Notes under the pieces: generated by a model
Databases searched by the model: none
Seen by the model: the letters and a program-made list of their open reading frames with translations, nothing else
What the model was told of the DNA's origin: nothing
Assembly (NCBI GenBank): GCA_017302035.1
Contig: JAFLEA010000020.1
Location: 1 to 42,800 of the forward strand
Length of the DNA stretch: 42,800 bases
Reading direction: 5' to 3'
Origin: Lysobacterales bacterium
Lineage (GTDB): Bacteria > Pseudomonadota > Gammaproteobacteria > Xanthomonadales > Xanthomonadaceae
Position numbers and translations under genes: made by a program
Part shown: piece by piece, positions 11,177 through 34,924 of the stretch
How the letters are laid out: every line of letters starts with the position of its first letter
How positions within the stretch are numbered: the first letter of the stretch is position 1

Positions 11177-14100
11177 ATGGCCCCCATGTCCTCCCCGCAT
11201 TCCGACGCCAGCCACACCGGCGCGACCGGCACCACGGGTCCGATCCCGGTGCTGGACGCTCCGGCCCCTCCGGCTCCGCCGCTGCGCGCGGCGATCACCG
11301 CCGCCTGGCTGCGCGACGAGGCCGCGCACGTGCGCGAACTGCTGGAACAGGCGCGGCTGGATCCGGCCCGCCAGGCCGAGGTGGACGCCCTCGCCGCCGA
11401 CCTGGTGCGCCGGGTGCGCGCCCGCGCCCAGGACCAGGGCGCGATCGAGGCCTTCATGCGCCAATACGACCTGGGCAGCGAGGAAGGCGTGCTGCTGATG
11501 TGCGTGGCCGAGGCCCTGCTGCGCATCCCCGACCAGGAAACCGCCGACAAGCTGATCCGCGACAAGCTCGGCGAGGCCGACTGGCAGAAGCACCTGGGCC
11601 AGAGCGAGTCGGTCCTGGTCAACGCCTCGACCTGGGGCCTGATGCTCACCGGCAAGCTGGTCAACCTCAACGACCTGACCCGCCACGACCCCGCCGGCGC
11701 GTTCAAGCGCCTGGTCGGCCGGGTCGGCGAGCCGGTGATCCGGCTGGCGGTGCGCCAGGCGATGCGGATCATGGGCCACCAGTTCGTCATGGGCCGGACC
11801 ATCGGCGAGGCCCTGGGGCGCTCGCGCAAGGGCGCCAATGCCGACTACCGCTATTCGTTCGACATGCTCGGCGAAGGCGCGCTGACCATGAAGGACGCCA
11901 GCCGCTACCTGCAGGCCTACCGCGACGCGATCCATGCGATCGGCAAGAGCGGGAGCTACCTGGGAACCGATGTGTTCGCCGCGCCGAGCATCTCGATCAA
12001 GCTCTCGGCGCTGTTCCCGCGCTACGAGCACGCCAAGCGCGAGCGGGTACTGGCCGAACTCGCCCCGGCGGTGCTGGAGCTGGCGCGGCTGGCGCAGTCC
12101 TACGGCATCGGCTTCACCGTCGATGCGGAGGAAAGCGACCGCCTGGAACTGTCGCTGGACGTGATCGAGGCCACCTACGCCGATCCCTCGCTGGACGGCT
12201 GGGAGGGCTACGGCCTGGCGGTCCAGGCCTACCAGAAGCGCGCGCCGTACGTGATCGACTTCCTCGCCGACCTGGCCCGCCGCACCGGCCGCCGGATCCC
12301 GGTGCGCCTGGTCAAGGGCGCGTACTGGGACGCGGAGGTCAAGCGCGCCCAGGTCGAGGGCCTGCCCGGCTACCCGGTGTTCACCCGCAAGCAGAACACC
12401 GACGTGTCCTACCTGGCCACGGCCCGGCGCATGTTCGAGCACGGCGACGCGCTGTACCCGATGTTCGCCACCCACAACGCACAGACCATCGCCGCGATCC
12501 GCGCGATCGCGGCCGGCCGGCCCTACGAGCACCAGAAACTGCACGGCATGGGCGACGACCTCTACGCCGAAGTGGTACCGGCCGACCGCCTGGGCGTGCC
12601 CTGCCGCGTGTACGCGCCGGTGGGCAGCCACGAGGACCTGCTGCCGTACCTGGTGCGGCGCCTGCTGGAGAACGGCGCCAACTCCAGCTTCGTCAACCGC
12701 ATCACCGACGAGAACGTGCCGGTGGCCGACCTGGTCCAGGACCCGGTGGCGATGGTCGCCGGCTTCGAGTCCAAGGGCCTTTCCATCGGCCACCCGCGCA
12801 TCCCGCTGCCGCGCGAACTCTTCATCCAGCAAGGCTTCGACAGGAACAACTCCATGGGCGCCAATCTCGCCGACGACAACGTACTCCGGGCCCTGGCCGC
12901 GCAGTTGAACGAGCATCCGGGCCCGTGGCGCGCCGCGCCGCGGGTACCCGGCGCCACGCCGTCGGGCGCGGCGGTCGCGGTGACCAGCCCGGCCGACCGC
13001 CGCCAGGTCGTCGGCCACTGGCAACCGGCCGACACCGCCACCGTGCAGCGCGCACTGGCCAATGCCGTGGCCGCGCAGCCGGCCTGGGACCGCACCCCGG
13101 CCGCCAGCCGTGCGGCGATCCTGGAGCACGCCGCCGACCTGCTCGAGCAGCGCATGCCGCAGTTCATGGCCCTGTGCGTGCGCGAGGCCGGCAAGACCCT
13201 GCCCGACTCGGTGGCCGAGGTGCGCGAGGCGGTGGACTTCCTGCGCTACTACGCCAGCCAGGCACGTCTGCAGTTCGGCGCCCCGGAGCAGTTGCCCGGC
13301 CCCACCGGCGAATCCAACGAGCTGCGCCTGCAGGGCCGCGGCGTGTTCGTCTGCATCAGCCCGTGGAACTTCCCGCTGGCGATCTTCCTGGGCCAGGTGG
13401 CCGCGGCGCTGGCCGCAGGCAACGCGGTGATCGCCAAGCCGGCCGAGCAGACCAGCCTGATCGGCCATGCCGCGGTGCAACTGCTGCACGAGGCCGGGGT
13501 GCCGGCCGAGGTGCTGCAGTTCGTGCCCGGCGACGGCGCCACCGTCGGTGCAGCGCTCACCTCCGACGCGCGGGTGGCCGGCGTGGCCTTCACCGGCTCG
13601 ACCGAGACCGCGCGCGCGATCAACCGCGCCCTGGCCGCGCGCGACGAGGCTCCCCTCGCGGTGCTGATCGCCGAGACCGGCGGCCAGAACGCGCTGATCG
13701 CCGACTCCTCCTCGCTGCCCGAGCAGCTGGTCAAGGATGCGGTCGGCAGCGCGTTCACTTCCGCCGGCCAGCGCTGCTCGGCCGCGCGCGTGCTGTTCGT
13801 GCAGGACGACATCGCCGACAAGGTGATGACCATGCTCGCCGGCGCGATGGCCGAACTGAAGGTCGGCGACCCCGGCCTGCTGTCCACCGACGTCGGCCCG
13901 GTGATCGATGCGGATGCGCTCGCGATCCTCGAAGCACATGCGCAGCGCATGGACGCCGAGGCGCGACTGATCGCGGTGGCCGCCACCGGCGAGGCCGTGG
14001 CGCACGGCACCTTCTTCGCCCCGCGCGCCTACGCGCTGGAGTCGCTGTCGCAGCTGCAGCGCGAGGTGTTCGGCCCGGTGCTGCACGTGCTGCGCTGGAA

Positions 14101-24140: not shown

Positions 24141-25472
24141 TCAGCCGCCCCGTGCAGGCGCCGGCGGCCGCTCGCGGATGCGATGCCACAGCCAGGCCAG
24201 CAGCACCAGGGTCGGCACCACGGTCAACGCACTGAGCAGGAAGAACGTGCCGTACGAGGTGGCTTCGACCAGGTATCCGGACAGGCCGCCGGCGAACTTG
24301 CCCGGCAAGTTGGCCAGCGACACCATCAGCGCGAACTGGGTGGCGGTGAAGTTGCGGTCGGTCAGCGAGGACATGAACGCGATCAGGGTGGTGCCAGCGA
24401 AGCCCTGGGCCACGTTGTCGGCGGTGATCGCCGCATAGAACGCCCAGATCTGCGACGGGTAGTGCGCCATCAGCAGGAATGCCAGATTCGACAGCGCCAC
24501 CCCCAGCGCCGCCACCAGCAGCATCCGCCGGTAGCCGAACGCGGCCACGCAGATGCCACCGAGGAACGCCCCACCGATACCGGCCCAGATGCCGTAGAGC
24601 TTGGACACCGTGGCGATGTCGGCCTTGGTGTAGCCCGAGTCCAGGTAGAACGGCCCGGCCATCACCCCGATCACCTGGTCGGGGAACTTGAACAGGCCCA
24701 CGAACAGCAACAACGCGATGCCGAAGGTCACCCCGTTGTTGCGGAAGAAGCTGGCGAACGGTTGCCAGAACGCGCCGAGGAAATCGATCCGCCGCTGCAC
24801 CGTCAGTTCCGGCACCGCCGGCTCGCGGCTGAGCAAGGTGGCCAGCAGCGGCAGCGCCATCAGCGCGGCCATGCCCAGGTAGGCCGCCTTCCAGCCGGCG
24901 AACTCGGCCAGGTACAGCGCCCCGGCGCCGCCGACGATCAGGCCGATGCGGTAGCCCAGGGTATAGGTCGCCGCCAGCGCCGCCTGCGCATCGGCCGGCG
25001 CGATCTCGATCCGGTAGGCATCCACCACCGAGTCCTGGGTGGCGCCGGCGAACGAGGTGAACAGCACCCAGCCCACCAGCGGCCCCACGCCCAGGTCCGG
25101 CCGGGTGAACGCCAGCGCCGCCAGGCCCAGGCCCACGCCCGCCTGCGCGGCCAGCAGCCAGGAACGGCGGCGGCCTAGGAAGCCCAGTGGCAGGAACACG
25201 TAGCGATCCAGCAGCGGCGCCCACAGGAACTTGAACAGGTAGAAGAAGCTGGCCAGGCTGATCAGGCCGATGCTGTGCAAGTCCAGCCCGGCGTCGCGCA
25301 GGCGCGTGGCCAGGGTCAGCGAAGCGATGGCCAGGAACGGCAGGCCCGAGCCGAAGCCCAGCACCGCCAGGGTCAGCGCCGAGGGCGTGCCGAAGGCGCG
25401 GCGGATGCCGGCCCAGCCCTTGTACGAGGGCTTTTGCGGTGCGGTCGACTCCTGCGGTGTCGCGGCGCTCAC
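24141..25472 (-). CDS. ampG: AmpG-like MFS permease (muropeptide importer)
   Basis: 443 residues, GTG start at 25472, about 12 membrane spans. Family features include LGFGSGLPFLAIASLTLATRL, KFLWAPLLDRY, SFAGATQDSVVDAYRIEI and ALMVSLANLPGKFAGGLSGY, as in AmpG permeases that import anhydromuropeptides from the periplasm. The start overlaps the xthA stop (GTGA), so translation is probably coupled. An AmpG role fits with anmK and the M23 peptidase in the same window. Some AmpG-like MFS proteins have other substrates, so the exact cargo is inferred. Confidence 0.85.
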   Translation of the reverse strand: MSAATPQESTAPQKPSYKGWAGIRRAFGTPSALTLAVLGFGSGLPFLAIASLTLATRLRDAGLDLHSIGLISLASFFYLFKFLWAPLLDRYVFLPLGFLGRRRSWLLAAQAGVGLGLAALAFTRPDLGVGPLVGWVLFTSFAGATQDSVVDAYRIEIAPADAQAALAATYTLGYRIGLIVGGAGALYLAEFAGWKAAYLGMAALMALPLLATLLSREPAVPELTVQRRIDFLGAFWQPFASFFRNNGVTFGIALLLFVGLFKFPDQVIGVMAGPFYLDSGYTKADIATVSKLYGIWAGIGGAFLGGICVAAFGYRRMLLVAALGVALSNLAFLLMAHYPSQIWAFYAAITADNVAQGFAGTTLIAFMSSLTDRNFTATQFALMVSLANLPGKFAGGLSGYLVEATSYGTFFLLSALTVVPTLVLLAWLWHRIRERPPAPARGG

Positions 25473-26278
25473 TTGGCACCGTCCGCGTAGTCCACGGTGA
25501 ACGGCGCGTGGTCGGAGAAGCGCTGCCCGGTGTAGATCGAACACGCGCGCAGCTTCTTGCGCAGCGAAGGCGTGACGAACTGGTAGTCGATCCGCCAGCC
25601 CACGTTGTTGGCGCGCGCCGCGCCGCGGTTGCTCCACCAGGTGTAGTCCTGGCCCTGCGGATGCAGCACCCGGTAGGCATCCACCCAGCCGCGTCCGGCC
25701 TTCGCGTTCGCGTCTTGCTCGTGGTCCGCACACAGCCCGTTGAGCCAGTCGCGCTCCGGCGGCAGGCAACCGGAGTTCTTCTGGTTGGACTTCCAGTTGC
25801 GGATGTCCAGCTCGCTGCGGACGATGTTCCAGTCCCCGCACAGCACGTAGTCGCGGCCGCTGGCCAGCCACTCGTCCAGGATCGGTTTCAACCACTCCAT
25901 GATCTGGAACTTGTAGCCCTGCCGCAGCTCGCCCGACGACCCGGACGGAATGTAGAACGAGACCACGCTCAGCTTGCCGAAGCGCGCCTCGATGTAGCGC
26001 CCCTCCTCGTCGAAGTCCGGCCGCCCCAGCGCCGTGCGCACCTCGTCCGGCTCGCGCCGCGCGTAGATCGCCACCCCGCTGTAGCCCTTCTTGGTGCTGG
26101 CGTCGCGGTAGAAGCAGTGGTGCCCGTCCGGCCGGAAGCGCGGATCGGTCAACTGGTCCTCCTGCGACTTGGTCTCCTGCAGGCAGACCACGTCGGCGCC
26201 CTGCCCGTCCAGCCAGTCGAAAAAGCCCTTGCTAGCGGCCGAGCGGATGCCGTTGGCGTTGAAGCTGATGATGCGCAT
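25469..26278 (-). CDS. xthA: Exodeoxyribonuclease III (AP endonuclease)
   Basis: 269 residues from ATG 26278. All catalytic motifs of the exonuclease III/AP endonuclease family are visible: ISFNANGIRSAA, VVCLQETKSQ, DYVLCGDWNIVRSELDI, WRIDYQFVT and RFSDHAPFTVDY. These supply the metal-binding Glu, the Asp/Asn pair and the final Asp-His. It cuts DNA at abasic sites and trims 3' ends. The related Pseudomonas protein Crc lacks catalytic residues, but this one keeps them. In related genomes xthA (or crc) lies beside pyrE. Here they are separated by about 8 kb of accessory DNA. Confidence 0.95.
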   Translation of the reverse strand: MRIISFNANGIRSAASKGFFDWLDGQGADVVCLQETKSQEDQLTDPRFRPDGHHCFYRDASTKKGYSGVAIYARREPDEVRTALGRPDFDEEGRYIEARFGKLSVVSFYIPSGSSGELRQGYKFQIMEWLKPILDEWLASGRDYVLCGDWNIVRSELDIRNWKSNQKNSGCLPPERDWLNGLCADHEQDANAKAGRGWVDAYRVLHPQGQDYTWWSNRGAARANNVGWRIDYQFVTPSLRKKLRACSIYTGQRFSDHAPFTVDYADGAK

Positions 26279-26330
26279 GCTTAATTCCAGGTGGTGGTAC
26301 GCGCGGTGTGCAACCCGCCGCCGATGCCCT

Positions 26331-27521
26331 TCATGCCGATGATCCGCCGGAAATGCCGTCGGGCACGTCATCGGTGAACAAGCGCACATAGGACTCGTAG
26401 CGGAAGCGCCGGTTGCGGGCGAAGCCGGTCATTTCCACCAGTATGTCCGCCTCGACCAGGCGGTGCACCAGGTTGTTGGCGGCGGCATACGTGGTGCCGG
26501 TCAGTTGCTGCACGTCCGATACGGTCAGGATCGGCCGATCGAACAAGCGCTCCAGCACACGATGGCCGTTGCCAGCAGCACGGCCGAGCCTGTCGGTGAT
26601 GATCGCCCTGTGCTCCTCGCGCAGCAGCTGGATGCGCCGCGCGGTATCGGCCGCCTCGCCCGCGACCTCGATCACGCCGCGCAGGAAGAAGATCAGCCAC
26701 TGCTCCCATTCGCCGCGGTCGCGCACTGCCTGCAAGTGCTCGTAGTACGCCTGCCGGTGCTGGCGGAAGTAGTGCGACAGGTACAGCACCGGTTTGTGCA
26801 GCACACCGCACTCCGTCAGCAGGAACGTGACCAGCAAGCGTCCCACGCGGCCATTCCCGTCCAGGAAAGGATGGATCGTCTCGAACTGCACATGCGCAAG
26901 GGCGATCTTCACCAACGGCGGCAGTCCGTCTTCGGCATGCAGGAACTGCTCCCATTCGCCCAGAACCCGCGGCACCTCATGCGCCGGGGGCGGCACGAAG
27001 GTGGCCGTGGCGAGCGTGCATCCGCCCGGGCCGATCCAGTTCTGGGTACGGCGCAATTCGCCAGGCTGCAAGCGACCGCCGCGCACCCCACGCATCAGTT
27101 CGGCGTGGATATCGCGCACCAGGCGCACGGACACCGGCAACTCGTCCAGCCACCGCAGGCCGAGATGCATGGCGCGCACGTAGTTGATGACCTCATCCAC
27201 GTCATGCGGCCGGTTCTCGTCGAACAGATTGGCCTCGGCGGACAGCAGATCCTGCAGGGAACTCTGCGTGCCCTCGATCTGGCTGGACAGCACCGCTTCC
27301 TTGCGTACATACATGAAGATGAACAAGTCCGGATTCGGCAGCGTCAGGACCGAACCGTCCAGCCGTCCCAGCGCCCGATCAGCCTGCGACAGCAGTCCCT
27401 GTATCTCCCCCTGCAAGGAAACAGGCGGCTCGGGCGGCAAGGGCGCGGGAATGAAGGCCCGGTAGCCCGTCTGCTGGCGAACGTAGGTACCCGCGCGAGT
27501 CGATATGGGCTGCTGGCTCAT
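26331..27521 (-). CDS. Class II Fic-domain protein (probable AMP-transferase) with C-terminal winged helix
   Basis: 396 residues from ATG 27521, with AGGGA upstream. The Fic core motif HPFLDGNGRVGR (217-228) is complete, with catalytic His and phosphate-binding Gly/Asn/Arg. The N-terminal part carries the inhibitory motif SSQIEG (79-84), matching (S/T)xxxE(G/N), so the enzyme should be self-inhibited (class II). The C-terminal third (LTVSDVQQLTGTTYAAANNLVHRLVE) looks like a winged helix that may bind DNA. Such proteins move AMP from ATP to a Ser/Thr/Tyr target. The target is unknown. No separate antitoxin is needed given the built-in inhibitor. It is the first gene of the accessory island next to xthA. 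Confidence 0.92.
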   Translation of the reverse strand: MSQQPISTRAGTYVRQQTGYRAFIPAPLPPEPPVSLQGEIQGLLSQADRALGRLDGSVLTLPNPDLFIFMYVRKEAVLSSQIEGTQSSLQDLLSAEANLFDENRPHDVDEVINYVRAMHLGLRWLDELPVSVRLVRDIHAELMRGVRGGRLQPGELRRTQNWIGPGGCTLATATFVPPPAHEVPRVLGEWEQFLHAEDGLPPLVKIALAHVQFETIHPFLDGNGRVGRLLVTFLLTECGVLHKPVLYLSHYFRQHRQAYYEHLQAVRDRGEWEQWLIFFLRGVIEVAGEAADTARRIQLLREEHRAIITDRLGRAAGNGHRVLERLFDRPILTVSDVQQLTGTTYAAANNLVHRLVEADILVEMTGFARNRRFRYESYVRLFTDDVPDGISGGSSA

Positions 27522-27561
27522 GGAATTCCCTGAGTTCACCACGGAAGCCGACAGGCCCCAT

Positions 27562-27580
27562 ATGATAGTTAAAGTTTAAC
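27562..27580 (-). promoter_or_regulatory. Palindromic operator next to a -10 box upstream of fic
   Basis: GTTAAAGTTTAAC (27568-27580) is a perfect inverted repeat with a single central base. Immediately downstream on the minus strand is TATCAT (27567-27562), a -10 candidate, about 40 bases before the fic ATG. The stretch is strikingly AT-rich for this genome. A repressor site is likely. The Fic protein's own winged helix is one candidate binder. Confidence 0.5.
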
Positions 27581-27651
27581 ATAAGGAAGAGTGTTTTACA
27601 TACTAAAGCCTCCCTTAAACATGAGGGCCTGTCGCCTACGCGGGGAAGCGC

Positions 27652-27999
27652 TTACTTCGCCGGCTTGAGCAACTCCAGCACCGCCTGCCGCCGCTTCGGC
27701 GACAGCGCGCGGTAGCGGACCAGCAGGTTCTTCTCGTCGGCGTTGCCGACGTAGACCTCCGGCGCCTCCTTGATCGACTCCCGGCCCGCCTGGGCGACCG
27801 CCGGCCCGCAGACCAGCTCGTCCAGCGAGGCCCCCAGCGCCGTGCGCAGGGACGGCAGCAGGCGGAAGCCGGGCGTCTCGCGCTCGTTCTCCCAGGCCGA
27901 TACCGAGGACTTGGTGACGCCCAGGGCGAAGCCCAGTTGCTCTTGGGTCATCCCGGCAGCGATGCGCGCGGCGCGCAGCCTGTCGCCGAAGCTCTTCAT
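27652..27999 (-). CDS. XRE-family transcriptional repressor, copy A
   Basis: 115 residues from ATG 27999. A helix-turn-helix of the Cro/C1 type covers residues 5-60 (FGDRLRAARIAAGMTQEQL, then GVTKSSVSAWENERE). A conserved tail contains EVYVGNADEKNLLVRY and SPKRRQAVLELLKPAK. Copy B at 31053-31400 is identical in 100 of 115 residues, and the first 41 residues are the same, so both should read the same operator. An in-frame ATG ten codons upstream (MAGHFRRAID) exists in both copies and could be the true start. The gene diverges from cargo operon A and lies upstream of fic on the same strand. Confidence 0.85.
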   Translation of the reverse strand: MKSFGDRLRAARIAAGMTQEQLGFALGVTKSSVSAWENERETPGFRLLPSLRTALGASLDELVCGPAVAQAGRESIKEAPEVYVGNADEKNLLVRYRALSPKRRQAVLELLKPAK

Positions 28000-28023
28000 G
28001 TCGATGGCCCGCCGGAAATGCCC

Positions 28024-28101
28024 GGCCATCAAAATATGGAGCTTCCCTACTAGTGTCGTCCGGCATTCCTTGACTCTTGTAGTCAGGCATAGCAATACTC
28101 C
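28024..28101. promoter_or_regulatory. Divergent promoter/operator region of cassette A
   Basis: GGCCATCAAAATATGG (28024-28039) is identical to a block at the same place in cassette B. TTGACT (28070-28075), an 18-base spacer and AATACT (28094-28099) form the likely plus-strand promoter of cargo A. AATACTCC (28094-28101) is one half-site of the palindrome seen complete in cassette B, with a degraded partner GGCATAGC (28086-28093). TGACT/AGTCA (28071-28084) is a further small inverted repeat. Confidence 0.6.
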
Positions 28102-28148
28102 GGCCAATCCGGGTACGGAACGCCTATACACACGAGGAGAAGGAGCTC

Positions 28149-28421
28149 ATGGGGCGGTCGTGGGTCATTGCTGTCATAGCGGGGGCCGTGGCGCTGCTGG
28201 GCCTGGCCGGGGTCGCCCGCGCGGAGTTGTATGCCGTCGAGGTCCGGCGCATCGACCAGGACCTCTACAAGACCTCCGAGGGCGTCTACATCCAGACCCG
28301 GTACTGCTACGTCCATGCCTACGGCGAGAAGGCGGTGCTCAAGTACGAGCCGTACGGCTACGACAACAAGCTCATCTTCGAGGACGACGATACCTGCGAT
28401 GTCGTGAAGGTGTTCAAGTGA
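28149..28421 (+). CDS. Small exported protein, unknown function (cargo A, gene 1)
   Basis: 90 residues from ATG 28149 after a purine-rich GAGGAGAAGGAG. A signal peptide (VIAVIAGAVALLGLAGVARA) leaves a mature protein of about 65 residues starting ELYAVEVRRIDQDLY. It has two Cys (in TRYCYVHAYGE and DDDTCDVVKVF) that could form a disulfide in the periplasm, and many Tyr. No family with known function is recognised. Its stop overlaps the GTG start of the protease gene (GTGA), so the two are likely made together. It may be an inhibitor, substrate or subunit of that protease. Confidence 0.8.
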   Translation: MGRSWVIAVIAGAVALLGLAGVARAELYAVEVRRIDQDLYKTSEGVYIQTRYCYVHAYGEKAVLKYEPYGYDNKLIFEDDDTCDVVKVFK

Positions 28422-29503
28422 GGGGCGTGCGTGTTCTCGCCCTGGGCGCCGTACTGCCGGTGCTGGCGCTGGTCGCGCGTCCTGCGGATGCGCAAAGCCT
28501 GTCTCCGCAGGAAGTGTTCCGGCGGGTATCGTCCAGCGTGGTGGTGATCGAAGTCACCGACGACGACAACAAGGTTATCGCGTCGGGAAGCGGTGTGGTG
28601 ATCCCGAATCGTTTCAAGGACGGGATACTGAAACTGAACCAGGTATTGGTCGCCACCAACTGCCATGTGGTCGACCAGGCACCGGATGGAAGGGTCACTC
28701 TCCGCCAAGGTGACATCCGGGGATGGGGACGGATCAACGGTCGTGATGCCTCGCGCGATCTCTGCACGATCCGTGGGCTGCTCATCGACTCGCCTGAGCT
28801 TCCAGCTAGTCAGGTCGGCTCTTCGCAATGGCTGGAAGTAGGCGATAGCGTCTATGCCGTGGGAGCACCGAAAGGTCTGGAGTTGACTCTATCCAATGGA
28901 ATTGTTTCCGGTTTTCGAGAGCACGAGGGCAACGAATACATCCAAACGACTGCGCCCATCTCCAGGGGCTCCAGTGGCGGCGGCCTGTTCGACGCGCAAG
29001 GTCGGCTGGTCGGAATCACCACCATGTACGTCAAGGACGGGCAAGCATTGAACTTCGCCATTCCGGCCGAATTGATCGCGTCGGTTCCAGAATTCCAGCC
29101 TGAAAGGAGGAACGTATCAAACCCCACGACTGGCCAGCCACCGCCGCTGACAACTGCGTCGGATGCTGATTCCAGGTGGATATACGTCACCGACGCCGAT
29201 GATGGCGCCCTAATCTATCTGGACAAAAAAACTGCAAAGCGGTCCGGCCAGGATGTCACGGCCTGGTGGAAATCGACGTACAAATCCCCGCAAAAGGATA
29301 AAACGGGCGATGTTTACGATGAGACATCCCATCTAAACGTCTTCCATTGCTCAACCCGCCAATTCTCCAGGATGAGCTTTGTACAACGGCTACGAGGCAA
29401 GGCAATCTACTCGCATGACTTCAAAAACTATGAAGTAGAAAGGAAACAAGCGCAGCCTGAAACGGTAGGCGAAGCTCTTCTTGAATTGGCCTGCTCGCTG
29501 TGA
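28418..29503 (+). CDS. Exported trypsin-like serine protease with extra C-terminal domain (cargo A, gene 2)
   Basis: 361 residues from GTG 28418. Signal peptide to about residue 25 (ALVARPADAQ). The S1-type protease domain has H83 (VATNCHVV), D114 (ASRDLCTI) and S186 in ISRGSSGGGLF, so the triad is complete. It resembles Deg/HtrA-type enzymes but has no visible PDZ domain. After a Pro/Thr-rich linker near residue 240, about 110 residues (DSRWIYVTDADDGALIYLDKK to the end) resemble the surface-adhesin E type domain by eye, with medium confidence. The gene turns AT-rich from about 29.1 kb (27 of 60 bases G/C at 29281-29340). Its stop overlaps the next GTG start. Confidence 0.88.
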   Translation: MRGVRVLALGAVLPVLALVARPADAQSLSPQEVFRRVSSSVVVIEVTDDDNKVIASGSGVVIPNRFKDGILKLNQVLVATNCHVVDQAPDGRVTLRQGDIRGWGRINGRDASRDLCTIRGLLIDSPELPASQVGSSQWLEVGDSVYAVGAPKGLELTLSNGIVSGFREHEGNEYIQTTAPISRGSSGGGLFDAQGRLVGITTMYVKDGQALNFAIPAELIASVPEFQPERRNVSNPTTGQPPPLTTASDADSRWIYVTDADDGALIYLDKKTAKRSGQDVTAWWKSTYKSPQKDKTGDVYDETSHLNVFHCSTRQFSRMSFVQRLRGKAIYSHDFKNYEVERKQAQPETVGEALLELACSL

Positions 29504-29835
29504 CTTGCCCGTCAGATCCTACTGCTGTTGCCTGGATAGGTGTCGTTGGCGCCATTATAGGGAGCGTTGCAACAGCAGCCACTTCAATCGTCAACCAATG
29601 CCTCCAGCGTCATTGGATCAGACGATCGGATGAACCGAGAAGAAAGCTGCTGCGCCAGATGCTGAATGACCCAAGGTACGACTGGCGCGAGCTAGACACC
29701 CTTAGACACGTCATCGGAACTGACGAAGAGGTGGCCAAGAGGCTGCTTCTCGACATCGGTGCGCGTGTTTCCGAAAACGGAAAGCAACAATGGGGGCCTA
29801 TCTCTCGGAACCCCCTTGCTGGTCAAAAGAAGTGA
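29500..29835 (+). CDS. Small membrane protein with cytoplasmic tail (cargo A, gene 3)
   Basis: 111 residues from GTG 29500, overlapping the protease stop. One N-terminal span (AVAWIGVVGAIIGSVATAATSIV) is followed by a basic segment (QRHWIRRSDEPRRKLLRQML). A compact helical region, YDWRELDTLRHVIGTDEEVAKRLLLDIGARVSE, may be a winged-helix-like fold. Proteins of this shape are widespread and uncharacterised. Base composition is low in GC compared with the flanks. Its stop overlaps the J-domain gene start, continuing the coupled order of the operon. Confidence 0.75.
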   Translation: MTCPSDPTAVAWIGVVGAIIGSVATAATSIVNQCLQRHWIRRSDEPRRKLLRQMLNDPRYDWRELDTLRHVIGTDEEVAKRLLLDIGARVSENGKQQWGPISRNPLAGQKK

Positions 29836-30788
29836 CCAAGCTCCGCACCCATTACGACAACCTCAAGGTCTCGCGCGACGCACCGGACAACGTCATCCGC
29901 GCCGCCTACAAGACGCTCAGCCAGAAATACCATCCCGACAAGAATCCGGGCGACGAGCGTGCCGCCCATGTCATGGCCGTCATCAACAGCTCCTACGAGG
30001 TCCTTTCCGACCCGGAACGGCGCGCCCGGCACGACGCCTGGATCGCGGCGGAAGAACAGAAGCTGAAGCGGCAGACCCAGCCGCAGTCCCCACCCATCCC
30101 GCCCGCGTGGCAACCGCCACCCACGGCGCAACCCCGGGAGCCGGAGCAAAACGCCCTGCTCGCGATCCTGCTCTGGCCGTTGAAGATCGTACTGCGCATC
30201 TTCATCGCCGTGCCGCAACTCCTGCTGCTCCTCATCATCGTAGGTGGCATGTTGGTCTGGGATGCGGTGGCCCCGGATCGCCCGCCACCCGCCGGACCCA
30301 AGCCCTACCAGGCGCAGGCTCCCGAACGACAGGTGCCGGCGAAGCAGCCAAAGGCTGAAAGCCAAGCGCCCAAGTATGTCCGCCCCGACAACGCACCTAA
30401 CGGCAGCCCCTGGCCCACCAATGCGGCCTACATCAAGGGCTATCCCGTCGACAACGCCGACGGCTACTCCAAGGTGACGGTGGACAACAGTCGCAACGAC
30501 GCCGACGTATTCGTCAAGCTCGTCTCCCTCGACGACGACACCGCCTATCCGGTGCGACAGTTCTACCTCCCGGCGAAGTCCCGCTTCACCCTCGACAAGG
30601 TGACTGCCGGCAAATACGACATCCGCTACAAGGATCTTGGAACAGGCGGGCTGTCCCGCTCGGAATCGTTCGAAGTGGACGAGACCCACTCCGCCGACAG
30701 CGTGCAGTACAGCGAAACTACCCTGAGTCTGTATAAGGTCCAGGGCGGCAATTTCCACACCTACGACCTTGCCGATTCGGAATTCTGA
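29832..30788 (+). CDS. Membrane-anchored J-domain protein (cargo A, gene 4)
   Basis: 318 residues from GTG 29832 (overlap GTGA). An N-terminal J-domain (HYDNLKVSRDAPDNVIRAAY; HPD at residues 34-36 in QKYHPDKNPG) would recruit and stimulate DnaK. A Pro-rich linker leads to a hydrophobic stretch at about 108-143, long enough for one or two spans. A second Pro-rich linker precedes a beta-rich C-terminal domain (about 190-318) that ends LYKVQGGNFHTYDLADSEF. There is no zinc-finger or CTD of true DnaJ, so this is a specialised co-chaperone. GC returns to about 70% at once. The last 21 codons recur as a fragment at 32552-32617. Confidence 0.9.
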   Translation: MTKLRTHYDNLKVSRDAPDNVIRAAYKTLSQKYHPDKNPGDERAAHVMAVINSSYEVLSDPERRARHDAWIAAEEQKLKRQTQPQSPPIPPAWQPPPTAQPREPEQNALLAILLWPLKIVLRIFIAVPQLLLLLIIVGGMLVWDAVAPDRPPPAGPKPYQAQAPERQVPAKQPKAESQAPKYVRPDNAPNGSPWPTNAAYIKGYPVDNADGYSKVTVDNSRNDADVFVKLVSLDDDTAYPVRQFYLPAKSRFTLDKVTAGKYDIRYKDLGTGGLSRSESFEVDETHSADSVQYSETTLSLYKVQGGNFHTYDLADSEF

Positions 30789-31052
30789 TCGCCTGTCCCG
30801 GTTCCAACGAACAACCGGCGTCCACTGGCTTCGCTTCAGGAAATGGAAAGCAAGGCAAGCACGCTTCGCAATGCGAGCCCATCATGAGAGTGGTGTCCAA
30901 GCGTCGGGCCGGACTGTCCTGTCGTATCCGGCGCGAGCCGGAACGAATCCCAGCCCTTCATCTCCGAGACCCGCGGCCATGTGGCAATCGAATGCGCGCA
31001 TGAATCCGGAGCGGAGTAGCCGCGACCGGCAACGTCATGGCACCACCGGCAT
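30789..31052. other. Intergenic stretch, no gene seen
   Basis: 264 bases between the J-domain gene and the stop of XRE copy B. Only short frames without ribosome binding sites occur. No hairpin with a T-run and no repeat end was found. It marks the junction between cassette A and cassette B. Confidence 0.5.
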
Positions 31053-31400
31053 CTACCTCGCCGGCTTGAGCAACTCCAGCACGGCCTGCCGCCGCTTCGG
31101 CGACAGTGCGCGGTAGCGGACCAGCAGGTTCCTTTCGTCGGCATTGCCGACGTACACCTCCGCCATCTCCTTGACCGACACCCCGCCCGACTGCGCGGTC
31201 GCCGGCCCGCAGATCAGTTCGTCCAGCGAACGCCCCAGCGTGGTACCCAGGGTTGGCAGCAGGCGGAAGCCGGGCGCCTCGCGCTCGTTCTCCCACGCCG
31301 ACACCGAGGACTTGGTGACGCCCAGGGCGAAGCCCAGTTGCTCCTGGGTCATCCCGGCGGCGATGCGCGCGGCACGCAACCTGTCGCCAAAACTCTTCAT
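31053..31400 (-). CDS. XRE-family transcriptional repressor, copy B
   Basis: 115 residues from ATG 31400, same fold and length as copy A. The first 41 residues, including the recognition helix TKSSVSAWE, are identical. The 15 differences lie from residue 42 on, mostly between residues 42 and 90. The tail EVYVGNADERNLLVRY and SPKRRQAVLELLKPAR is kept. The in-frame upstream ATG is also present (MACPFRRAAG), with synonymous changes relative to copy A, which hints that this extension may be translated. It diverges from cargo operon B. Shared DNA-binding regions make cross-regulation of both cassettes likely. Confidence 0.85.
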   Translation of the reverse strand: MKSFGDRLRAARIAAGMTQEQLGFALGVTKSSVSAWENEREAPGFRLLPTLGTTLGRSLDELICGPATAQSGGVSVKEMAEVYVGNADERNLLVRYRALSPKRRQAVLELLKPAR

Positions 31401-31424
31401 GCCCGCGGCCCGTCGAAAAGGACA

Positions 31425-31502
31425 GGCCATCAAAATATGGGGCTTCCTGACCGCTGTCGTGCGGGCTTTCTTGACTCATCGAGTTGGGAGTATCGATACT
31501 CC
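31425..31502. promoter_or_regulatory. Divergent promoter/operator region of cassette B
   Basis: GGCCATCAAAATATGG (31425-31440) matches cassette A exactly. TTGACT (31471-31476), an 18-base spacer and GATACT (31495-31500) form a plus-strand promoter. The perfect 16-base palindrome GGAGTATCGATACTCC (31487-31502) covers the -10, the ideal place for a repressor dimer. This is the best operator candidate for the XRE pair. Confidence 0.7.
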
Positions 31503-31534
31503 GGGGGTACGGAAAAACCGGCCGAAAGGACACC

Positions 31535-31603
31535 ATGGCAGCGTTCGTCGCCGAGCCCATGGAGCCGAGGAAACAGGACCTGCCACGCACCGGAGATCGA
31601 TGA
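31535..31603 (+). CDS. Possible 22-codon leader ORF before the membrane protein of cargo B
   Basis: ATG 31535 follows AAAGGACACC, a better ribosome binding site than that of the next gene. The frame encodes 22 residues (MAAFVAEPMEPRKQDLPRTG and two more). Its TGA overlaps the ATG of the membrane protein gene at 31600 (ATGA). It may act as a leader peptide for coupled translation. It is too short for coding statistics to help. Confidence 0.35.
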   Translation: MAAFVAEPMEPRKQDLPRTGDR

Positions 31604-32205
31604 TGCAGAAGCTGCTACTAGCCGTTGGCATCGCCTTGCTGGGATGCGCCGTCGTTGCTGCCGTCCTCTACGCCTGGCATGGACACTGGTTTCCGGTCGT
31701 GCTCGCCATCGGTGCCGCCTTCGCCGGCAAGCTGGTGCTGGGCCTGGTGGAGATCGTGCTGACGCCGTTGTCCTTCCCGGCGGCCCATTTCGCCAGGCGC
31801 GGGAACATGGCGCTGTCGTTCCTGTTCGCGGCCCTTCTCGCCCTCCTCGGGCGTACCGCGTTCGCCGCGTACTGTGCCTTCATCCTGCTGTACTACTTCC
31901 ACACGCCCGGGCCGCCGGCCTGGCTTGCCGTCGCGCTCGCCATAGTCGTGGCAAGCGCGCCGTTCGCGCAGGCGTCCCGGCACGCTCCGGACGACACCCA
32001 TCCAGGCCACTTCGACATGCTTGCCGCCATGTTCGGCGTGGCGATCTCCGGCGCGTTGCTGATCTTCGGCGTCGGCACGATTCCCGGCCTGGCTCCGCTG
32101 GCCCTGCTGTTCCTCGTCTCGGCGGCCGGCTTCGTGATCTGGTGGATGAGCCGCGGCGCCCGGCTGGCCAGGATCGCGTATTTGGCAAACGGTGGTTTGC
32201 CTTGA
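31600..32205 (+). CDS. Polytopic membrane protein, unknown function (cargo B)
   Basis: 201 residues from ATG 31600 (ATG 31603 is equally possible, with GGAG upstream of both). About six hydrophobic spans: LLLAVGIALLGCAVVAAVLYAW, VVLAIGAAFAGKLVLGLVEI, LSFLFAALLALLGRTAFAAY, AWLAVALAIVVASAPFA, MLAAMFGVAISGALLIFGVG and LALLFLVSAAGFVIWW. A His/Asp-containing loop (RHAPDDTHPGHFD) lies between the fourth and fifth spans. No family is recognised. It stands at the position where cargo A has its exported protein and protease, so the two cassettes share a regulator but carry different genes. Confidence 0.75.
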   Translation: MMQKLLLAVGIALLGCAVVAAVLYAWHGHWFPVVLAIGAAFAGKLVLGLVEIVLTPLSFPAAHFARRGNMALSFLFAALLALLGRTAFAAYCAFILLYYFHTPGPPAWLAVALAIVVASAPFAQASRHAPDDTHPGHFDMLAAMFGVAISGALLIFGVGTIPGLAPLALLFLVSAAGFVIWWMSRGARLARIAYLANGGLP

Positions 32206-32275
32206 CGCTCTGCCCCATACCCGCCCCCTGATGCAGCAAGTACTTCCATCGCCTCCTTTTGCAGAGAACGCGACC

Positions 32276-32530
32276 ATGAGTGAGAAGATCCCTATCGTCT
32301 GCCGATTCGAGTTTGCCTGCCCCATTCAGTGGGAAGACCTGCAAGTCGTCGGAGGATCCGGCGGCGCCCGTCACTGCACGGAATGCGAGGAATTGGTCCA
32401 CCCCTGCAGGAACTACGACCAGTTGCGGCACCATGTGCAGCAAGGCCATTGCGTGGCCATCAACCTAGGTACGCCTTTCAGGACGGCGGGCATTGTGAGA
32501 CTCGAGGATCTTCTGGCAGAGGAGCGGTGA
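32276..32530 (+). CDS. Cys-rich small protein, probable zinc-ribbon (cargo B)
   Basis: 84 residues from ATG 32276. CRFEFACPIQWEDLQVV is followed by ARHCTECEELVHPCRNYDQL and a His/Cys pair in QQGHCVAINL. The pattern (C-P-x-x-W-x-x-L, then R-H-C-x-x-C, then C, then G-H-C-V-A) fits a widespread uncharacterised family of small proteins with four or more metal-ligand Cys/His. I know of no proven function. It lies 70 bases after the membrane protein gene and 21 bases before the J-protein tail remnant. Confidence 0.75.
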   Translation: MSEKIPIVCRFEFACPIQWEDLQVVGGSGGARHCTECEELVHPCRNYDQLRHHVQQGHCVAINLGTPFRTAGIVRLEDLLAEER

Positions 32531-32551
32531 CCGCGCGTGATGTCGAGCTGC

Positions 32552-32617
32552 CTTGTACCTCTACAAGATCCAGGACGGGAACTTCCAGACCTACGATCTG
32601 GCCGACTCCGAGTTCTG
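32552..32617 (+). pseudogene. Remnant: last 21 codons and stop of a second J-protein gene
   Basis: The frame ending at TGA 32615-32617 encodes a tail that matches the end of the J-domain protein at 30788: LYKxQxGNFxTYDLADSEF. Most base differences between the copies are at third codon positions (tat/tac, aat/aac, gac/gat, ctt/ctg, gat/gac, gaa/gag), so both descend from coding genes held under selection. A TGA at 32537 closes the frame upstream, and no J-domain exists in cassette B. Confidence 0.75.
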
Positions 32618-32658
32618 AACGAATCCAGGGCCATCCAGATCTGAATCAGGAGTAGCAA

Positions 32659-32988
32659 ATGAACACATCCGCTCCGCCATTGGCCGATCTTCTGCGCCGG
32701 GATATCGGTCCCGATTTCCCCGTGGTATCAGGCACCAGCAAGGCAGACTCGCCACTGGTCATTTCCGAGACGGTCGATTACGTCGCGGTTGAGCATGTCG
32801 TCATCCGCCATGTGATGGGGATGATCGACGAGGAATGGAAGCTGGCCGAGCAACGCGTGACCCATCAGGACGGTCGCGTGATCGACGAGATGGTAGTCAA
32901 CGTGAAGGACGCTGGTGCGCCGGACTGGCAGGGGCGTCGACGTTTCTACTTCGACATCACCGCTGGCTGGCACGCCACCTACGGATAG
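32659..32988 (+). CDS. Protein of unknown function, probably cut short by an in-frame TAG
   Basis: 109 residues from ATG 32659 with an excellent AGGAG six bases upstream. The N terminus is MNTSAPPLADLLRRDIGPDF and the middle contains ETVDYVAVEHVVIRHVMGMI, with RRRFYFDITAGWHATYG at the end. No family is recognised. No signal peptide or membrane span is present, so it is likely cytoplasmic. The stop is TAG (32986-32988). The same frame stays open for 30 more codons with normal codon use (VDLRHPTKLDTISAALEATR, then KRLVLGVADA) to a second TAG at 33079-33081. The original gene may have run to 33081. Confidence 0.65.
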   Translation: MNTSAPPLADLLRRDIGPDFPVVSGTSKADSPLVISETVDYVAVEHVVIRHVMGMIDEEWKLAEQRVTHQDGRVIDEMVVNVKDAGAPDWQGRRRFYFDITAGWHATYG

Positions 32989-33162
32989 GTCGACCTGCGC
33001 CACCCCACGAAGCTCGACACCATTTCCGCGGCACTGGAGGCCACGCGCAAGAGGCTGGTACTTGGCGTGGCCGATGCCTAGGAGTTGGGTCGCCGGCAAG
33101 CCCTGTGCCTGCAGGGACGCCGCGTCCTGTCGTCCCGCTCGCGCTGGGGCGAGTGCTTCCAG

Positions 33163-33468
33163 TCATCGCGTGGGTTTCCAGTTGGATCGCGAGGGGAACA
33201 CGCGCTCGATCTCCACCGTGTTGCCATCGCGCCGGTAGAGGATCACGAACAGGCCGTCGCCGGTGGGGTACAGGCGCGAATCGGGCAGCGGGCCTTGCAG
33301 GTAGGTGGCCACGCCATCGAGGGCGTCGCCTTCGGCTTCGATGCGGTCATCGCGATCCAGGGCGGCGGCATACACCTGCGGGTCGGAGGCGTCGATGGCG
33401 CGATCCAGTGCCCGGGCGAGCAAACCGGCACGGTCATCGAGCGCGGTTTGCTTCCATGCCACCGTCAT
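33163..33468 (-). CDS. RelE/ParE-superfamily toxin
   Basis: 101 residues from ATG 33468. The start MTVAWKQTALDDRAGLLARAL and the end SRLYPTGDGLFVILYRRDGN, then TVEIERVFPSRSNW match the ParE/RelE-like toxin fold (helical hairpin, then a sheet ending in a basic strand). In the family such toxins poison gyrase or cut mRNA on the ribosome. Which applies is not clear. It follows its putative antitoxin by 12 bases, in the usual antitoxin-first order. It is likely one operon under the promoter near 33960-33990. Confidence 0.85.
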   Translation of the reverse strand: MTVAWKQTALDDRAGLLARALDRAIDASDPQVYAAALDRDDRIEAEGDALDGVATYLQGPLPDSRLYPTGDGLFVILYRRDGNTVEIERVFPSRSNWKPTR

Positions 33469-33480
33469 GCGCGGGCGCCC

Positions 33481-33942
33481 TCAGTCTTGCAGCGCGGCAT
33501 CAAGCCGCGCCCGCTGCGCGGCCTTGATGGCATCCATGTGCCGCCTGGCTTCGGCACTGGACAGTGCGGAGCGGGTGTCTGCACGCGCTTCCAGCACGCC
33601 TTCGCGCAGGAGCGCGGCATAGCGTGCGTCGGCGTCCTTCTGCTTCATGGCGGCGGAGCGGTCGGGCCGCTGCCGGGTGCCGGCCGCGCTGGGGGCGTCC
33701 CATCGCGCGGCATCCACGCGCAGCATGTCCAGGCGAACGCCCAGCTCACGCAGCACCTTCAGTGCGCTCTCGAAGGTACCGAAGCGGCGCGGCTCGTTGC
33801 CCTTGGTGGCCAGCACGCGGGCTTGATTGTGGGTTTGCAGCTGCACGGCCCAGCCGCCGGGCTGGCCGATCACTTCGGCCTGCGTGACGGCACCGGCATC
33901 CACCAGCTCGCGGGCGGTGGCCAGTTTGACGAGATCGGGCAT
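33481..33942 (-). CDS. Putative antitoxin of the RelE/ParE pair
   Basis: About 153 residues, starting MPDLVKLATARELVDAG. An ATG seven codons upstream (MIRTESAM) is possible but lies within the repeats thought to be the operator. The N-terminal half (GAVTQAEVIGQPGGWAVQLQ, then RRFGTFESALKVLRELG) looks like a small DNA-binding or partition-like domain. The C-terminal half is highly charged and helical (ARYAALLREGVLEARADTRS) and may wrap the toxin. Pairing is inferred from position, spacing and this layout. It is longer than classic RelB/ParD antitoxins. Confidence 0.65.
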   Translation of the reverse strand: MPDLVKLATARELVDAGAVTQAEVIGQPGGWAVQLQTHNQARVLATKGNEPRRFGTFESALKVLRELGVRLDMLRVDAARWDAPSAAGTRQRPDRSAAMKQKDADARYAALLREGVLEARADTRSALSSAEARRHMDAIKAAQRARLDAALQD

Positions 33943-34246: not shown

Positions 34247-34924
34247 ATGACCGACCACCGCACCCGCTTCCTGCAACTGGCCCTGGACGCCGAGGCCCTG
34301 CGCTTCGGCGAGTTCACCCTCAAGTCCGGCCGGGTCTCGCCTTACTTCTTCAACGCCGGCCGCTTCGACCACGGCGCCAGCCTCGCCGCGCTGGCCACCT
34401 GCTATGCCGATGCCATCGACGCGGCCGGGGTCGAGTTCGACCTGTTGTTCGGACCGGCCTACAAGGGCATCCCGCTGGCCACGGCGCTGGCCTGCGAATA
34501 CGCGCGCCGCGGCCGCGACCTGCCGCTGGCGTTCAACCGCAAGGAGGCCAAGGCCCACGGCGAGGGCGGCACCCTGATCGGCGCGCCGCTGGCCGGGCGC
34601 CGAGTGCTGGTGGTGGACGACGTGATCACCGCCGGCACCGCGATCCGCGAGGCGCTGGCCACGATCGCCGGCGCCGGCGGCCAGGTGGCGGGGATCGTGG
34701 TGGCGCTGGACCGGCAGGAAATCGCCTATGAACAGCGCGCCGGCGAACAGGATCGCCGCTCGGCCGCGCAGGCGGTGGCCGCCGAGGCCGGGGTGCCGGT
34801 GCTGGCGGTGGCCGGGCTGGCCGACCTGCTTGCATTCGCCGACGGAAACGACACACTGGCGCAGTACCGCGCACCGCTGCAGGCCTACCGCGCCCGCTAC
34901 GGTTGCCAACCGAGGGCCGACTGA
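34247..34924 (+). CDS. pyrE: Orotate phosphoribosyltransferase
   Basis: 225 residues from ATG 34247. It makes OMP from orotate and PRPP in pyrimidine synthesis. Family features: FGEFTLKSGRVSPYFFNAG, LLFGPAYKGIPLA, AFNRKEAKAHGEGGTLIG and the PRPP-binding loop RRVLVVDDVITAGTAIREAL. The earlier in-frame sequence lacks homology, so this ATG is the start despite the missing ribosome binding site. It is the first backbone gene after the accessory island. The DUF4124-type gene follows by 15 bases. Confidence 0.96.
   Translation: MTDHRTRFLQLALDAEALRFGEFTLKSGRVSPYFFNAGRFDHGASLAALATCYADAIDAAGVEFDLLFGPAYKGIPLATALACEYARRGRDLPLAFNRKEAKAHGEGGTLIGAPLAGRRVLVVDDVITAGTAIREALATIAGAGGQVAGIVVALDRQEIAYEQRAGEQDRRSAAQAVAAEAGVPVLAVAGLADLLAFADGNDTLAQYRAPLQAYRARYGCQPRAD

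Follow-up and report, generated by a model that had tools for sequence, protein, structure and literature searches.

The stretch of DNA analysed here, called the window, measures 42,800 nucleotides and represents one whole contig (JAFLEA010000020.1, assembly GCA_017302035.1) of the 2.9 Mb genome of a Lysobacterales bacterium, whose genus is taken as Pseudoxanthomonas. Between the genes xth and pyrE it carries two tandem units, A and B, each of which opens with an XRE repressor gene and a divergent promoter. A first-pass annotation, made from the sequence alone, had described them as paralogous cassettes with constant ends and different cargo, suggestive of a modular element which swaps its contents by recombination. 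Genomes are denoted by G numbers, where G000 is the window's own genome, and the features are collected in Table 1.

Composition of the two tandem units

Table 1. Genes, promoter regions and relics of the xth-pyrE interval, in coordinates of the window.
Feature	Position	Strand	Remarks
xth	25469-26278	-	left flank of gap; named from sequence, no family search
Relic of third XRE (~11 codons plus upstream DNA)	26300-26357	-	beside xth start, overlapping Fic 3' end
SoFic-like Fic gene	26331-27542	-	PADLOC SoFic E 3.7e-121; Pfam Fic_N, Fic
XRE1 repressor	27652-27999	-	unit A 5' end; 89% to XRE of G215
Divergent promoter/operator region	28000-28148	.	unit A; likewise conserved ahead of XRE genes of other genera
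c22, 90-aa exported small protein	28149-28421	+	cargo A; predicted all-beta
Exported Trypsin_2 + Adhesin_E protein	28418-29503	+	cargo A; Pfam; hydrophobic N-terminus
m111, 111 aa	29500-29835	+	cargo A; one hydrophobic segment (7-28); 60% to G251 protein
J-domain protein	29832-30788	+	cargo A; J-domain, hydrophobic segment (107-149), beta C-terminal domain
c34 relic	30903-30998	+	unit A 3' end, after J gene; tblastn E 4e-8
XRE2 repressor	31053-31400	-	unit B 5' end
Divergent promoter region	31401-31599	.	unit B; 31393-31514 is 73% identical to unit A region
B201	31600-32205	+	cargo B; five hydrophobic segments; no Pfam match
B84, small protein with CxxC	32276-32530	+	cargo B
J-protein tail relic, 21 codons	32553-32615	+	tblastn E 6.6e-7 within the 8-kb xth-pyrE interval
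c34, 109 aa, intact	32659-32988	+	unit B 3' end; same place in G215 (79%) and G251 (71%)
pyrE	34247-34924	+	right flank of gap; named from sequence, no family search

The repressors XRE1 and XRE2 share 100 of 115 residues, as had been stated before, and their DNA is 84.6% identical over 468 bp in a match which extends beyond the start codons and includes part of the divergent promoters. The related promoters, and with them the constant regulator/promoter 5' end of the first-pass annotation, are borne out. Both genes represent the sole two close copies in G000, where a third match reaches 45% over 38 residues (E 6.7e-4). Apart from one 20-bp match at E 0.053, operator-like DNA of this genome is limited to both promoters and to a third XRE relic beside xth. 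The relic agrees with positions 27965-28022 in 48 of 58 bp and is found genome-wide as a match at 26326-26357 (E 1.8e-4). The 3' end of the Fic gene overlaps this same upstream piece, and the final codons of Fic seem to be derived from it.

Domains and hydrophobic segments confirm the contents proposed for cargo A, i.e., an exported small protein, a protease, a membrane protein and a J-protein. The AlphaFold model of c22 has a mean pLDDT (predicted local distance difference test) of 79, and its fold reveals no match in the PDB at E 0.001 or better. The protease matches Pfam Trypsin_2 at E 5.5e-25 with H83, D114 and S186 present, and the J-protein matches Pfam DnaJ at E 9.2e-19 with its HPD motif at residue 34. 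The model of the J-protein has a mean pLDDT of 67.6; the J-domain alone matches strongly, namely to known J-domain structures including one solved bound to DnaK (5nro). For the beta domain, weak beta-sandwich matches to structures were obtained and not used. In cargo B, B84 has matches in 8 of 393 family genomes at E 1e-5, its own included.

At their 3' ends the units complement each other: unit A keeps the J gene and holds c34 only as a relic, while unit B keeps c34 and holds J only as its last 21 codons. The c34 relic of unit A is 59% identical over 32 residues to c34 of G215 (tblastn), in agreement with the DNA alignment. The J-tail of cargo B, which the first-pass annotation had already recognized, preserves the same residue in 17 of 21 codons and 79% of the DNA over 63 bp (32559-32621). 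Its similarity reaches another locus, a check proposed at that time: G251 harbors two consecutive J-tails (12050-12196 and 12238-12318 of L075). Since these occupy the same place, just before c34, the similarity is not due to chance. Judged from these remnants, both units once ran from XRE to a membrane J-protein gene followed by the small gene c34 at the 3' end, such that the J-tail reads as a decayed relic and c34 as the intact 3' gene. The constant 3' end claimed earlier thus holds in the form of J-tail plus c34, while the J-tail by itself is only a relic; the c34 relic after the cargo A J gene, the intact c34 after the B tail and the XRE 5' relic had been missed. Relatives of c34 occur in 4 of 393 family genomes, three island-bearing ones and one with a 29% match elsewhere. 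In the stretch from c34 to pyrE, two minus-strand open reading frames (ORFs) of 101 and 153 aa lie within 33163-33942, both without Pfam matches.

The xth-pyrE gap and the unit in related genomes

Matches to both xth and pyrE, and hence a measurable gap, are given in 16 of 17 genus genomes. The gap is empty (115-151 bp) in nine of them and ranges from 305 to 7969 bp in the other seven. One genome has a gap of 305 bp. The 774 bp of G060 contain the C-terminal part of XRE alone, and the gaps of G239 and G203 (880 and 884 bp) are filled by an HTH_37/Gp49-type pair (Pfam run on the G239 pair). In G203 (L100, 2404-3288) the Gp49-type frame stops early and its helix-turn-helix (HTH) partner stays open. 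The largest gaps belong to G251 (5182 bp), G215 (5659 bp) and the window (7969 bp), where G251 additionally has a HipA gene (HipA_C Pfam match) and a small HTH gene beside xth. The same core flanks therefore enclose varying content and are empty in relatives, and the gap hosts defence or toxin-antitoxin type genes according to the SoFic model and the HipA_C and HTH_37/Gp49 Pfam matches. In Pseudoxanthomonas this gap is a hotspot of insertion which receives toxin-antitoxin and phage-defence genes too. The core defence hotspots cDHS1 and cDHS2 of Pseudomonas aeruginosa (PMC10250203) likewise consist of conserved core genes around a gap with varying defence genes. In contrast to them, the xth-pyrE gap does not exceed 8 kb in the genomes seen, and within it the ends of one unit are retained while the interior varies. 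A literature search in one library, judged by titles and abstract starts, found no treatment of the xth-pyrE locus.

In agreement with the first-pass annotation, no integrase was detected: Pfam reports no recombinase family for ten proteins scanned from 26331-33468 (XRE2 not among them), nor for the 153-aa ORF at 33481-33942. An integron cassette array would have an integrase nearby, and those ten proteins include none.

Within the genus, the full XRE is found in only two other genomes, G215 and G251, each with c34 and a J gene or J-tails. In G215 the order is XRE, c22, Trypsin/Adhesin_E, a 152-aa protein, a 142-aa lipoprotein-like protein, a 526-aa J protein and c34. In G251 it is XRE, a broken c22, the m111 relative (60%), two more ORFs, the two J-tails and c34. 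G322 and G041, which belong to other genera, carry c22 and J together, each with a different HTH-like gene beside them; that of G322 is about 43% identical to XRE2 over some 55 residues, and that of G041 was judged by eye. The small membrane protein upstream of J belongs to one family in G000 and G251, to another in G322 and G041, and to a third in G215, while G037 and G101 possess J without c22 or protease matches nearby. In a survey of the class, 3 of 369 genomes, among them that of the window, have c22 at E 1e-6. The J C-terminal domain is present in 16 of 395 genomes of the family (E 0.001), and 2 of the 17 genus genomes have it.

The repressor itself is more widespread: at E 1e-15, 41 of 395 family genomes have a relative, counting the genome of the window. 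Surroundings were read for 35 other XRE loci, while five genomes (G315, G085, G058, G299, and G176) were not fetched widely. In 33 of the 35 loci, neither c22 nor the J C-terminal domain nor c34 lies near XRE (E 1e-4); at one of these 33, in G043, the region includes a protease match (39% over 145 residues). No repressor was found on plasmids at 1e-12, and phage records and viral contigs yielded one partial match each, the former at 1e-8. The idea that the repressor marks a mobile element was consequently rejected outside the genus, all the more as c22 and J stand beside different HTH-like genes in two other genera. Among 26 XRE upstream regions, a [TC]GTCGT block is present in all 26 and a fixed TTGAC ... 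AATACT-like promoter pattern in 16. This promoter/operator region is similar across several genera though the gene facing it differs.

Divergence of the ends and the interior

G215, a congener with the unit at the same site, was compared with G000 by differences at four-fold sites per gene. The 5' end, composed of XRE (18/63) and c22 (10/33), pools to 28/96 (0.29), and the five flanking genes pool to 245/1023 (0.24), namely 35/118 for xth, 23/131 for pyrE, and 31/108, 93/404, and 63/262 for the others. The interior reaches 84/156 (0.54), distributed over trypsin (45/82), Adhesin_E (14/15), J-domain (10/28) and J C-terminal part (15/31). It differs from the flanks (p 2.6e-13) and from the 5' end (p 1.5e-4), whereas 5' end and flanks do not differ significantly (p 0.26). 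Adhesin_E identity amounts to 50% between G215 and G041 and 44% between G000 and G322, while the other four pairs range from 31 to 34%. The c22 tree unites G000 with G215 and rejects G000 with G322 (approximately unbiased (AU) test, p 0.0019), and the Adhesin_E tree unites G000 with G322 and rejects G000 with G215 (AU p 0.0025).

Because the interior has diverged further than both the 5' end and the flanks, and because the c22 and Adhesin_E trees conflict, we lean slightly towards an account in which contents were swapped between the kept ends of a regulated cassette. Recombination is suggested as the cause by the mosaic divergence. Homologous recombination in the shared ends (XRE, promoter and c22 on one side, J-tail and c34 on the other) would replace the interior, and the tandem units would decay reciprocally afterwards, A losing c34 and B losing J.

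Several observations weigh against an exchange. With 16/42 four-fold differences, c34 is intermediate (p 0.083 against the interior, p 0.044 against the flanks), i.e., the 3' end is less kept than the 5' end, and the interior is uneven, as its J-domain comes close to the ends. The c22 and Adhesin_E trees comprise four rows with G322 on a long branch, the groups having been tested once the pattern was seen, and the J trees give no resolution. The lower GC content of the interior (0.50-0.63) could by itself have increased synonymous rates, with no exchange involved, although c22 (0.63) shows no such increase. As the unit is found at the xth-pyrE site in only three genomes, breakpoints are coarse. 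Finally, the comparison of both ends within the window given below has a small base when restricted to four-fold sites (J-tails 4/6, XREs 10/62).

A plain tandem duplication with decay, where copy B lost its interior by deletion and gained two unrelated genes with no exchange involved, would explain why dS is lower between XRE1 and XRE2 (0.24) than between XRE1 and the XRE of G215 (0.46) or G251 (0.35), and the relics in both units fit its reciprocal loss. We regard it as rather unlikely. The J-tails of A and B differ at 11 of 12.8 synonymous sites and the two XREs at 19 of 93 (Fisher p 1e-5, rounded counts), which makes the ends of unequal age unless the XREs were homogenized; moreover, the interior of unit A and its counterpart in G215 have diverged out of proportion, and the trees conflict. 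Of the modular swapping in the first-pass annotation, the significant step in synonymous divergence and the c22/Adhesin_E tree conflict speak for retention, while the pattern is in part one of tandem units with reciprocal loss.

Predicted function and accessory relatives

The unit is most likely a repressor-controlled accessory module for envelope protection (against phage, foreign protein or envelope stress) and not a housekeeping one. XRE would repress its own gene and the divergent operon. Once repression is lifted, the Adhesin_E protease and c22, both predicted to be exported, and the one-transmembrane (TM) protein would be made along with the inner-membrane J-protein, whose HPD J-domain probably recruits host DnaK at the membrane with the beta domain in the periplasm.

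DjlA-type membrane-bound J-domain co-chaperones combine a J-domain with a TM segment. The cargo A protein is a candidate J-domain co-chaperone, carrying a J-domain with HPD, and is likewise predicted to work with DnaK; it differs from the DjlA type by its N-terminal J-domain, a C-terminal beta domain predicted to be periplasmic, and its nature as a patchy accessory gene. Similarly, the cargo A protease shares with the exported HtrA/Do proteases a hydrophobic N-terminus, the trypsin fold and the H/D/S residues, but has a C-terminal Adhesin_E instead of a detected PDZ domain, and its scores are far below the NCBIfam cut-offs. This bears on a device for envelope stress, which repairs or degrades misfolded periplasmic proteins by an HtrA-like protease tied to DnaK via the membrane J-protein. 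Its exported trypsin fold with H83/D114/S186, best NCBIfam matches to Do/HtrA peptidases (below their cut-offs) and the order of J-domain, hydrophobic segment and beta domain would suit such a device; the scarcity of the J C-terminal domain in the genus (2 of 17 genomes), the control by an XRE repressor instead of an envelope sensor and the lack of a PDZ domain in Pfam make it a doubtful, if possible, reading.

An anti-phage or conflict module, whose protease and J-protein would work in the envelope of an infected cell, is likewise only a tentative possibility. The gap it shares with the SoFic match, HipA/HipB-type and Gp49/HTH_37 genes is suggestive, although hotspot company is weak evidence. 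PADLOC has no model match for c22, m111, J, B201, B84, and c34, which counts against a protective role as well, and for XRE1 and the protease its matches are limited to the HTH or protease parts of models (RmrA, capH, RT-Protease_XI). The NTP-dependent conflict systems described by Kaur et al. 2020 (PMC7159879) likewise assemble trypsin and J-domain parts in one gene neighborhood along with HSP70; unlike there, Pfam reveals no GTPase, MoxR or vWA part in the scanned proteins of the unit. As described for bNACHT25 (PMC12169576), the DnaJ of the host can play a part in the sensing of phages. That case makes a J-protein in such a place plausible and is not evidence for this J-protein.

Relatives on mobile replicons bear on the same question. 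The J C-terminal domain has relatives on 23 plasmid records (E 0.01), five of which were opened. The J family follows shortly after ppl on Klebsiella and Raoultella plasmids, which would fit defence. On these plasmids (L126, L129), ppl carries an anti-phage annotation and is separated from the J-TM-beta gene after it by one or two small ORFs. On two small plasmids, the J gene follows a Phd/YefM-Txe/YoeB pair, and on an Aeromonas plasmid the annotated J relative is a 195-aa protein read as lacking a J-domain. Relatives of c22 were found on 9 of 72,556 plasmid records (E 0.001; five opened) and on four viral contigs, the latter again in line with defence; on plasmids, however, they are part of an Hsp70/AAA operon or have unrelated genes as neighbors. 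Viral contigs contain five J matches, all to the J-domain only. No protease relatives occur on plasmids at E 1e-20, a further point against the main reading.

On a Shewanella plasmid (L114/L117), c22 lies inside the Hsp70/AAA operon adjoining Tn7-like transposition genes. An Aeromonas plasmid (L115) has an operon like it, and a similar one was recognized by eye in G616 (L123). This succession of Hsp70, AAA ATPase, exported proteins, doubled c22 and RDD looks like an uncharacterised accessory system. In the viral contigs L142 and L144, c22-type genes are near a likely tyrosine integrase or serine recombinase, with ORFs judged by eye.

Taken as a whole, an integrase-free regulated cassette-exchange locus, in which XRE/promoter/c22 and J-tail/c34 serve as homology handles for swapping envelope-defence contents tied to host DnaK via the membrane J-protein, would be an unlikely combination of all its parts. 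If the account of exchange between kept ends is right, accessory envelope genes would be renewed while the switch and the chaperone link stay, without a recombinase at the locus, and the defined ends would offer a means by which further contents can be found. An uncharacterised J-TM-beta family with small exported partners is indicated, some relatives of which reside on plasmids beside defence or addiction genes.

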